A DNA stretch of 64,000 bases, from the NCBI GenBank assembly GCA_032881465.1, contig CP126168.1, forward strand, positions 682,001 through 746,000, read 5' to 3'. The notes below the pieces were generated by a model. That model had not been told where the DNA came from. It made no database searches and was given only the letters and a program-made list of their open reading frames with translations. Positions 54,811 to 58,370 of the stretch are shown in pieces (within the stretch, counting starts at the first letter, position 1; every line of letters begins with the position of its first letter). The position numbers and the translations under genes are program-made. The DNA comes from Parvibaculaceae bacterium PLY_AMNH_Bact1 (lineage in GTDB: Bacteria > Pseudomonadota > Alphaproteobacteria > Parvibaculales > Parvibaculaceae).

Positions 54811-55488
54811 ATGGCATATAAGCTCTACAACGCACAACTGTCGCCTTATTCGGCCAGGTGTCGCATGCAAATGTACGCAAAAGGCCTCGACTTTGAAGCC
54901 GTCAGTCCATTTGAGACACTCAGTCCGGAAGAATTCGCCAATTTGACGCCGCTTAAGAAAGTCCCGGTTCTGGATGTCGACGGCCTCATTCTTCCTGAAT
55001 CCCAGGTCATCGCGGAATATCTCGAAGAGGTAGAAACCGATGTTCGGCTTCTGCCTGACGACCCAGCCGACCGTGCGCAAGTTCGGCTTCTTTCGCGCCT
55101 CGGAGATCTCTATCTCATGATGCCGCTGGGCAAGCTTTTTGGGCAGGTAAACCCTCAGGGCCGTGACCCGAAGCTTGTTCAATACATGTTTGGCGAGTTG
55201 GATAAGGCGATGGCCTGGCTGGCGCATTATGTAGACGGATCGAAATATGCGGTGGGTGATAAACTGACCCTTGCGGATTGCACGCTCGTGCCCATGTTGT
55301 TTTTCGCCTCTAACATAACGCCGCTTTTCGGCCGCGAATGTGTTTTGTGCGATACCCCCGTCATCCACAACTATTTCACAAAGACCCTGGAAGACCCCGC
55401 TGTCGGGCGTGTTGTCGAGGAGCTCGAAGATGCGTTTGCCAAGATGATGGGCCCTAAGACGGAACCGCAAAAACAGCCTGCAGAGTAG
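54811..55488 (+). CDS. Glutathione S-transferase family protein
   Basis: A 225-residue thioredoxin-fold/helical protein. The N-terminal LYNAQLSPYSARCRMQMYAKGLDF and PESQVIAEYLEE give the GSH-binding domain. KYAVGDKLTLADCTLVP is the C-terminal helical domain signature. GSH conjugation or isomerase role is inferred. It is expressed apart from the dehydrogenase because of the terminator. Confidence 0.9.
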   Translation: MAYKLYNAQLSPYSARCRMQMYAKGLDFEAVSPFETLSPEEFANLTPLKKVPVLDVDGLILPESQVIAEYLEEVETDVRLLPDDPADRAQVRLLSRLGDLYLMMPLGKLFGQVNPQGRDPKLVQYMFGELDKAMAWLAHYVDGSKYAVGDKLTLADCTLVPMLFFASNITPLFGRECVLCDTPVIHNYFTKTLEDPAVGRVVEELEDAFAKMMGPKTEPQKQPAE

Positions 55489-55522
55489 TGTCTAGCGCCA
55501 TATCTCCTGGCCTGCGTGCCAA

Positions 55523-55875
55523 CTAAGAACTGACCCACGCGACAACGAGCCAGAGATACGCGACTGTAATCACACCAAACGAAACGGCGCTATTACTCGA
55601 ATGCCCGGCAGGTCCTGTCCGGGTCCCTTTACGGTCGCCTGATACATAAAGAGCTGAGGGTTAGCCCATGAGCCGACCAAAAGCAGCCAGCCCGCGATAA
55701 CCGGCAGAGCCGGGAAGACGGTGGCGATCACCATCTGCAAAATCCCCATAAAGATATTGTCCAGATGACACTGCAGAACGCGCCGCGCGTTGACCAGCGG
55801 GCCCACTTTCTCCGCACCTGTCTGAAGTCCGACCATGACCCATCCTAGCAAAACGCCGAAGGTCACTTGTATCAA
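55523..55875 (-). pseudogene. Frameshifted and 5'-truncated small membrane protein gene
   Basis: Frame A runs from a TTG at 55875 (LIQVTFGVLLGWVMVG, then ARRVLQCHLDNIFMG and VIAGWLLLVGSWANPQLF) and stops at 55570 after a charged, non-membrane tail. A second frame takes over: it opens just before 55655 and ends at 55523 with SFGVITVAYLWLVVAWVSS, a fourth hydrophobic helix that frame A lacks. A single frame change near 55620-55655 would restore a four-helix protein of about 115 residues. The frame continues upstream as LLDPQQAHASG without a start codon. Function unassigned. A sequencing error is the alternative explanation. Confidence 0.5.
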
Positions 55876-55886
55876 GCCGGACGCAT

Positions 55887-56414
55887 GTGCTTGCTGAGGA
55901 TCCAGAAGTCATGTTGCGTAGTTTAGACGACAGGCGCTCAGCTTTGTCGGAGCTGCTGCCTGAACTGCGCTCGATTTATGTCGGGGGACAAAGTGGACCA
56001 CGGTTTCGTCTCTATGAGGGTATGGATGGCATTCGAACGGTCTTGAACTCAGTGTTGATGGCGCAGGCAGACACTCTTTGCGGGATGCTCTCCATGAGGG
56101 AACTGCTTCGATTTCCTGGAAGGGAGGAACTTGCTCGATTTGTAGAAAAGCGCGTTGAGGCAGAAAAGACACTTCGTGTCATCAGGTCGGCGAGTGAAGA
56201 CGTGGATGAGATCTGGGGTGCCAGTGAAGCAGAGTTGAGGGAAGTGCGATTTACACCCACCCCGTCGCCCTTGATGATGACGACATTTGTCTATGACGAT
56301 CAGGTCGCAATCATTTCATCTGAGCACGAGAACTACGGTCTGATTATAGAGAGTACCGGCTATGCCAATGTGCAAAAGACTTTGTTTGAATCGCTTTGGG
56401 TCGCCAGCAGATGA
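55887..56414 (+). CDS. TrmB-like regulator lacking its HTH domain
   Basis: A 175-residue product (GTG 55887; ATG 55911 gives 167). Sequence such as AEDPEVMLRSLDDRRSALSELLPELRSIY and MMTTFVYDDQVAIISSEHENYG resembles the C-terminal part of TrmB-family regulators. There, the AEDPE segment directly follows the helix-turn-helix. No HTH precedes it here: the reading frame hits a stop at 55836-55838 and opposite-strand membrane-protein sequence begins. It is probably a truncated, perhaps still folded, sensor domain. Next comes a histidine kinase gene on the other strand. Confidence 0.6.
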   Translation: MLAEDPEVMLRSLDDRRSALSELLPELRSIYVGGQSGPRFRLYEGMDGIRTVLNSVLMAQADTLCGMLSMRELLRFPGREELARFVEKRVEAEKTLRVIRSASEDVDEIWGASEAELREVRFTPTPSPLMMTTFVYDDQVAIISSEHENYGLIIESTGYANVQKTLFESLWVASR

Positions 56415-56435
56415 TAGGGCGATCCCGCCCGGGAA

Positions 56436-58370
56436 CTAGGCTCGTGCGGAGCCGGTTTTAAGGTCAGGATGCGCGCTTGGGAGGGTCACGATTGCCCGTG
56501 TGCCTTGGCCCTTCTCGCTTTCAAGACGGAAGGTTCCGCCCTGTAACTCGGCGAATGATTTGGTAAGCGCAAGGCCAAGTCCTGAGCCTTCTTCCGCCTG
56601 GCTTGACTTGTCTGCGATCTGTTCAAATGGTCTCAAGAGACGGGGGATATCCGTCGGGTCAATCCCTACGCCATTGTCACTAACGCTCACTTCCAATACA
56701 TCGGGCATCGTTTGAACATCCACACTGATGGCCCCGCCTTCGCCGGTAAACTTGACCGCGTTGGAAAGAAGGTTGATCAGGATCTGTTTCGTCGCACGGA
56801 TGTCGGCGTAAGCGGAATTGTGCAGTTGTGGCGTCAAAACGTTCAATTCCACAAGCTGTGTCTTGGCTTCAGATTTTGCTTCCACAAAACGCATACAGGT
56901 TTCAACGATCTCAACCAGATCGATGGGTTCCGGCTTGATCTCCATCTTGCCAGCTTCAACTTTCGACATGTCGAGAATGTCATTGATAAGATCGAGAAGG
57001 TGGGTGCCGGACTCATGAATAAGATTGGCATACTCGTCATAGACGTCGTCGCCCAGCGGACCATACATCTTCCGCATGAGGATTTCGGAAAAACCAATCA
57101 CGGCATTGAGCGGTGTGCGGAGTTCGTGACTCATATTTGCAAGAAAAGTCGATTTTGTCCTGTTCGCGGTCTCTGCCTTTTCTCGGGCATCAAGAAGGCG
57201 TTGCTCATATTCTTTGCGTTCTGAGGTGTCTCGTGTGATAGCGATGGCTTCAATCATTTCGCCACTTCGATCATCAAGTATGGGATGTACCGTACTTTCG
57301 AGCCAAATAAACTCGCCCTTGAGATTGGGGAGGCGGAACGATATCCGGACGCTATCGGCGCCTGTGTTTAGTGCCTCGAGTTTTTGGCGAGCCTCTGCCT
57401 GATCGTCTCTATGCATCATTTCGATGATGTTGTGGCCAACCACATCTTCTGGCTCAGCACCCATGACTTTTCTGACCGCGGGGGACACAAAAGTGAGCAC
57501 GCCCTCAGGACTGTGGCGCGCAAACATATCATACGCGTGCTCCGCGATCATCTGATATTGCTCCGAGGTGCGCCGCAGCGCCAGTTCTGTGTTGAGGCTG
57601 TCCGTGACGTCATCAAGGATACCAATGACACTTCTAATTTCATTGTGATCGTCCAACTCAGGAAAGCCGTGGGAGACAAAATGGCGGTAGCTTCCGTCCT
57701 GCCGCCGCAATCGCATGGAATGAGAGAACGGTTTGGGGTCGTCCACAAGTGACCTCATCGCCTCTTTCACATGCTTTGCATCGTCTGGGTGCAACAACTC
57801 TAACAAGGTTGCGTCGGGTACTTCCTTGGTCTTGGTTGGTAGGTCGAGCATCTGAGAAAAGGCAGAAGAGACTACTCGTGTATTGCGGTCTCGGTCCCAT
57901 CGATAAGTGCCAAAGCCGGCTGTGTTTTCCGCGATGGAAAAATGGTCTTCCAATCTGCGGCGTGACGTGACGTCGCGGCTGACCACGAGGACGCCCTGAA
58001 TGTTAGGATCATCAAGTAGATTGCGTACATCCGCCTCCACCCAGCGCCACGATCCATCTGTGTGTGGCAGGCGGAAACTCTCGCTCAGCCGCACACCCTT
58101 GTTCGCCAGGCAATATCGGATCCTGTCGGCAACCCGATCGCGGTCATCACTATGTACAATGTCAGCAGCGAAGAAACCCAATGCCTCTTCAGGTTCAACG
58201 CCAATCATCTCTTTGATCGCGGGGCTGTGATAAATGTAGTGGCCCTTGTCGTCGAGCAAGGTCAGAACGTCACCAGAGTTCGCAAGCAAAGCTTCAAAAA
58301 ACTTTGCCCCGCGTTTGTGCGGTGATGCGTTTCCTGCGCCACCTTCCGCTGGTTGCTCCTGGTCCGTCAC
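56436..58370 (-). CDS. Multi-PAS sensor histidine kinase
   Basis: A 644-residue cytoplasmic kinase without a clear transmembrane segment. Three PAS domains (about 22-135, 140-260, 268-390), then the phosphoacceptor helix with H415 (FLANMSHELRTPLNAVIGFSEIL) and an intact HATPase (INLLSNAVKFT, SDNGVGID, GSGLGLALTKSFAELQGG). Unlike the kinase at 6188-7747, all ATP-binding boxes are present. No cognate response regulator is adjacent. The PAS domains suggest sensing of redox, light or small molecules. Confidence 0.93.
   Translation of the reverse strand: MTDQEQPAEGGAGNASPHKRGAKFFEALLANSGDVLTLLDDKGHYIYHSPAIKEMIGVEPEEALGFFAADIVHSDDRDRVADRIRYCLANKGVRLSESFRLPHTDGSWRWVEADVRNLLDDPNIQGVLVVSRDVTSRRRLEDHFSIAENTAGFGTYRWDRDRNTRVVSSAFSQMLDLPTKTKEVPDATLLELLHPDDAKHVKEAMRSLVDDPKPFSHSMRLRRQDGSYRHFVSHGFPELDDHNEIRSVIGILDDVTDSLNTELALRRTSEQYQMIAEHAYDMFARHSPEGVLTFVSPAVRKVMGAEPEDVVGHNIIEMMHRDDQAEARQKLEALNTGADSVRISFRLPNLKGEFIWLESTVHPILDDRSGEMIEAIAITRDTSERKEYEQRLLDAREKAETANRTKSTFLANMSHELRTPLNAVIGFSEILMRKMYGPLGDDVYDEYANLIHESGTHLLDLINDILDMSKVEAGKMEIKPEPIDLVEIVETCMRFVEAKSEAKTQLVELNVLTPQLHNSAYADIRATKQILINLLSNAVKFTGEGGAISVDVQTMPDVLEVSVSDNGVGIDPTDIPRLLRPFEQIADKSSQAEEGSGLGLALTKSFAELQGGTFRLESEKGQGTRAIVTLPSAHPDLKTGSARA

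Follow-up and report, generated by a model that had tools for sequence, protein, structure and literature searches.

A recent deletion across a shared control region as the probable cause of joint decay of a TrmB-type regulator gene and a divergent membrane-protein gene

In the window, the whole 64,000-nucleotide stretch of alphaproteobacterial DNA analysed here (bases 682001-746000 of the genome), we found the remains of a TrmB-type regulator gene lying head to head with those of a gene for a small membrane protein, here called M. We consider it very probable (about 0.92) that one recent deletion of about 355 bp, together with the loss of a single base, turned both genes into pseudogenes, since no native start, native control region or DNA-binding domain is left. 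It is an ordinary loss of a gene pair, but an unusually legible one: a clean, recent snapshot of how a regulator disappears jointly with its likely target, close relatives showing several stages of the process.

The junction and the two stumps

The features of the locus, by position in the window, are as follows.
54811-55488, plus strand: intact glutathione S-transferase gene; left flank, common to relatives
55523-55590, minus strand: out-of-frame 3' end of M, its last transmembrane helix recognisable in another frame
55570-55875, minus strand: M stump, four-helix membrane protein (TTG, 101 amino acids); the first 9 residues are lost from the frame, which is then open to the frame break
55876-55881: deletion junction; GCCGGA fits both sides, with 3 to 6 bases shared
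55887-56414, plus strand: HTH-less TrmB-type regulator stump (GTG, 175 amino acids); the C-terminal 175 of about 248 residues, with a PLD-like effector domain
56436-58370, minus strand: intact PAS/histidine kinase gene; right flank, common to relatives

Base alignment with the relatives G002, G001 and G005 resolved the difference into one single gap of about 355 bp (355 bp missing relative to G002 and 354 relative to G001), bounded on the left within codons 8-9 of M and on the right within codons 70-71 of the regulator. Missing are seven codons of M including its start, the entire intergenic region, and regulator residues 1-70 with the complete HTH match. The hexamer GCCGGA at the junction reads as Gly-Ser of M on the minus strand and as regulator sequence leading into Arg-Thr-His-Val on the plus strand, and BLAST carries both flanks across it. 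In the relatives, 3 or 4 of the six positions agree between the two sites, and we therefore give the microhomology as a range of 3-6 bases. An earlier note on this DNA held that the two protein-like stretches abut without a spacer near 55875-55910, and they do meet there, at 55876-55887. Its further proposal of one deletion followed by frame loss stands as to the single gap and the one-base loss; the order of the two lesions can be read either way.

Bacterial pseudogenes can form by deletion between short repeats. The present locus resembles such cases in truncation, frame loss and very short junction homology, and is unusual only in that one event appears to have beheaded two divergent genes along with their shared control region. 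The deletion probably arose by slippage or microhomology, joining short matches within each of the coding regions, and would have taken away M's start, the divergent promoter region and the entire winged-HTH portion of the regulator at once; M is in addition one base short towards its 3' end. By comparison with the orthologues, truncation and frame loss mark both genes as pseudogenes, and probably neither stump is expressed or functional.

The plus-strand stump has only two likely starts, GTG 55887 or an inner ATG at 55911, and its frame is open up to the native stop. BLASTP matches to same-genus orthologues are far beyond chance for both stumps (E 6e-114 for the regulator, 4e-61 for M). Intact regulators in relatives have about 238-248 amino acids with an N-terminal winged HTH, which is present in 10/10 aligned orthologues and missing here; the stump is thus the C-terminal part of a TrmB protein without its HTH, as had been read from the letters. 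The PF01978 HTH match of the G002 orthologue (residues 12-67, E 1.8e-9, 37.7 bits against a curated cut-off of 25.6) falls wholly inside the portion deleted from the window copy. The structural model of that orthologue places the winged-HTH helices and wing up to residue 76, a linker helix from 79 and the effector domain at 112-246; the deletion ends before residue 79, so linker and effector domain would be retained in the stump. Foldseek returned TrmBL2 and TrmB as the best matches (E 3e-10 to 5e-9) and also matched phospholipase D, these being matches of the orthologue model, 87% identical to the stump over the stump's length, with low full-length TM-scores of about 0.4. The intact orthologue is therefore like TrmB-family regulators (PF01978; TrmB 3qph, TrmBL2 5bpd) in its PF01978 HTH and in its fold, including the PLD-like C-terminal effector domain, whereas in the window copy the HTH is entirely missing. 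The intact protein of about 248 amino acids is not among the named sugar-sensing TrmB equivalogs, for which all scores were far below cut-off. Searched alone against Pfam and NCBIfam, the stump gave no usable match (best E 0.16 and 0.038, below cut-offs); the Pfam match, to a beta-lactamase-like domain, was rejected as weak.

The minus-strand frame matches residues 10-103 of the 126-residue M. Near 55588 the gene is one base shorter than in relatives, and five foreign codons and a stop follow; the last helix continues in another frame. The frame is thus, as the earlier note described it, that of a membrane protein with a broken 3' part. The same note saw no start upstream of 55875: the true start is indeed lost, but a TTG at 55875 does exist, although it is not the homologous start. 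Stump queries of the same genome found no second copy of either stump.

The intact pair and its losses in relatives

The intact divergent pair is the ancestral arrangement. Of 60 relatives (own genome aside), 10 gave a match to the regulator stump and 12 a match to the M stump, and the pair, complete with HTH and spacer, is present in 10/10 that have the regulator, including 4/6 congeners; named relatives carrying it belong to Rhodobiaceae, Candidatus Phaeomarinobacter and Parvibaculum. Across the order (40 genomes including our own), the regulator occurs in 12, and only our own match begins beyond residue 8 (at 69 of 248). Two Parvibaculum-type genomes (G017, G025) have M without the regulator. 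A contig search with the regulator alignment yielded 37 regulator loci, 10 in the family and 27 outside it (an earlier contig search with the plus-strand stump as query found no loci), and 35 of the 37 match TrmB over essentially full length.

In two congeners, G003 and G004, the flanking glutathione S-transferase and histidine-kinase genes are contiguous and the pair is absent without trace, with 98 bases between the aligned flanks in G003 and about 6 in G004. An assembly gap was rejected as the reason, the flanking genes lying on one contig and almost touching. A loss shared by our genome and G003 was likewise rejected: G002, the sister of G003 (100% support), is intact. The placement of G001 in the flank tree is less certain (66% and 0.87 support). 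From this tree and the losses in G003 and G004, three loss events in seven congeners are the simplest count.

Directly after M, 9/10 family loci carry a carbon-nitrogen hydrolase gene (the exception is L057, from G001). It is found in G005, G006, Candidatus Phaeomarinobacter and Parvibaculum, with PF00795 in the G005 copy. Of the seven congeners, G005 and G006 alone have kept it; elsewhere there are distant matches (E 2e-6 or worse), and in G001 none. The loss of the hydrolase is older than the deletion, the gene being already gone from our genome's clade. Because the hydrolase after M is gone from the whole clade and the pathway was thus already broken, the later loss was probably tolerated.

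Outside the family, tblastn found M beside the regulator in 0/27 loci. A full-length nitrilase-type gene occurs in 16/27 of these loci, adjoining the regulator in 13, with a fragment in L093 and none in 10, counts that cover fetched stretches of unequal length, so that absence holds within the stretches only. The hydrolase genes downstream of M (L058 3485-4519, L061 3452-4468 and others) are 25-31% identical to the regulator-adjacent nitrilases found elsewhere. The hydrolase beside M is uncharacterised and distinct from those nitrilases of other bacteria.

A parallel head-to-head beheading of a TrmB-type gene is seen in another class. In the betaproteobacterium Pusillimonas minor (L090 2600-3120), a regulator running from residue 94 of 239 meets a TRAP transporter gene, which we take to be DctM, running from residue 9; P. 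noertemannii (L075) has a nitrilase gene, DctQ, the control region and the HTH in between, all of which are absent in Pusillimonas minor. As far as the sequence tells, this scar arose independently yet has the same layout, a TrmB gene without HTH facing a decapitated TRAP gene head to head. In Oligella ureolytica (L093 4531-5268), only decayed scraps of a TrmB-type regulator and a nitrilase lie side by side.

Constraint, age and rival readings

We counted codons at which one of G000, G001 and G002 differs from two agreeing others. Nonsynonymous/synonymous changes on our own lineage were 4/22 in the regulator stump and 0/10 in M, as against 3/19 and 9/33 (regulator) and 1/11 and 2/24 (M) on the sister branches; relaxed constraint, a further mark of pseudogenes, was thus not seen in either stump. 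Columns invariant in relatives number 62 in TrmB and 33 in M; the stumps depart from them at 2 and 1 respectively, and the single case in M is no more than the TTG translated as methionine. Had they evolved neutrally for more than about 4% of our branch, the chance of four or fewer nonsynonymous changes would be below 5%, a rough Poisson estimate from these codons alone that assumes both stumps neutral. We therefore prefer the view that the damage is recent, dating back no further than roughly the final 4% of the branch, provided that both stumps are neutral. Unrelaxed constraint fits a recent event but also retained function, which speaks against a double pseudogene; recency is preferred because M, without start, last helix and control region, looks equally constrained.

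The earlier note had also raised a DNA-binding-free sensor. In such a case the 175-residue product would be made from GTG 55887 or ATG 55911 by read-through transcription and would serve either as a sensor or in partnership with other regulators. Its uninterrupted frame as far as the native stop, constrained like that of the intact sisters, agrees with this, as does the coincidence of the lost portion with the winged HTH, which would leave a foldable domain. Yet a promoter scan of 55300-56600 returned no promoter-like site upstream, its one match lying inside the stump against 0.6 expected; in the same scan, terminator-like sites numbered 4 where 1.3 were expected, each of them on the minus strand, and we regard the scan as uninformative for promoters and terminators alike. 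An intact close paralogue that could serve as partner is absent from the genome, where a full-length regulator query found one further weak match (E 4e-5). Relatives with the same short gene, which would have told against a deletion, form no conserved lineage: the only 2 of the 37 regulator loci that are incomplete are both decayed. We consider a functional product very improbable and advise against annotating the 175-residue reading frame as a functional regulator or sensor.

An assembly or sequencing error that joined the genes and dropped one base is more improbable again. The one-base loss taken alone could be a sequencing error, but the genome is a single contig of 3.74 Mb and 100% complete, 5/5 neighbouring genes show full-length, unbroken frames when aligned with relatives, and a junction repeat of 3-6 bp would probably be too short to mislead an assembler. 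It is scarcely credible that the short form is ancestral and that relatives gained HTH and spacer; we found no support for it, and against it stand the long form in 10/10 relatives of two genera of the family, and also in Xanthobacter, Azoarcus, Achromobacter and others, and the truncation of the M coding sequence at the same point. The recent deletion with its one-base loss is thus the reading we retain.

In the flanking kinase gene, the middle (PAS) part (57291-58010, minus strand, residues about 121-360) has diverged in our genome far beyond its flanks and beyond the distance between G001 and G002; nonsynonymous/synonymous counts are 49/79 on our own lineage, compared with 12/62 and 20/108 (Fisher p 0.001 and 7e-5). 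A recombination patch that replaced the sensor region would look like this.

M and the intact module

Intact M has about 124-126 amino acids and four predicted helices in relatives, and neither Pfam nor NCBIfam searches with it gave a match. Its best structural match, surfacing only in a second look with VIA as the top of 997 aligned chains, is styrene oxide isomerase (8pnu; Z 12.9, 123/126 residues, rmsd 2.4 A, 15% identity), a haem-dependent epoxide isomerase according to the part of the source consulted (PMC11374702). Helical bundles can attain a Z of 12.9 through a common arrangement of helices, and respiratory oxidase chains follow at 12.1 and below. Foldseek with M gave no match at E <= 0.001, with 8pnu absent from the best 50 matches, and PDB sequence searches gave chance matches or none. 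Family features of styrene oxide isomerase are a haem-binding histidine and a catalytic Asn/Tyr network; M has an invariant His46, which may or may not correspond to H58 of 8pnu. The two are alike as four-helix membrane proteins and differ in that their sequences do not match; because of this, and of a score within the helical-bundle range, we treat the resemblance as a lead only.

From the divergent placement, the HTH and the TrmB fold, the intact regulator probably controlled M. The most economical reading of the arrangement is a small catabolic operon (M and the hydrolase here; elsewhere nitrilase and transporter) under a local regulator. It is possible, although doubtful, that divergent regulator-target modules favour exit by one deletion across the shared control region, and that the TrmB/isomerase-like M/hydrolase module is an undescribed catabolic unit. 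If such an exit route were favoured, the TrmB module would offer a natural series from intact, through hydrolase loss and head-to-head scar, to complete loss, and the Pusillimonas minor scar would be an independent instance. Literature searches on TrmB regulators and nitrilase gave archaeal papers only among the matches listed and nothing on such a module; none linked styrene oxide isomerase with TrmB, and looser searches gave nothing relevant among the matches listed.

The uncharacterised module of TrmB-type regulator, possibly isomerase-like M and carbon-nitrogen hydrolase, intact in Parvibaculum, Candidatus Phaeomarinobacter and two congeners, is a better lead than the scar itself. In M-only genomes (L036 1225-3672; L037 3524-5987), a HAD-type gene lies divergent to M, with a cytochrome P450 gene after it, neighbours that hint at oxygenated substrates.
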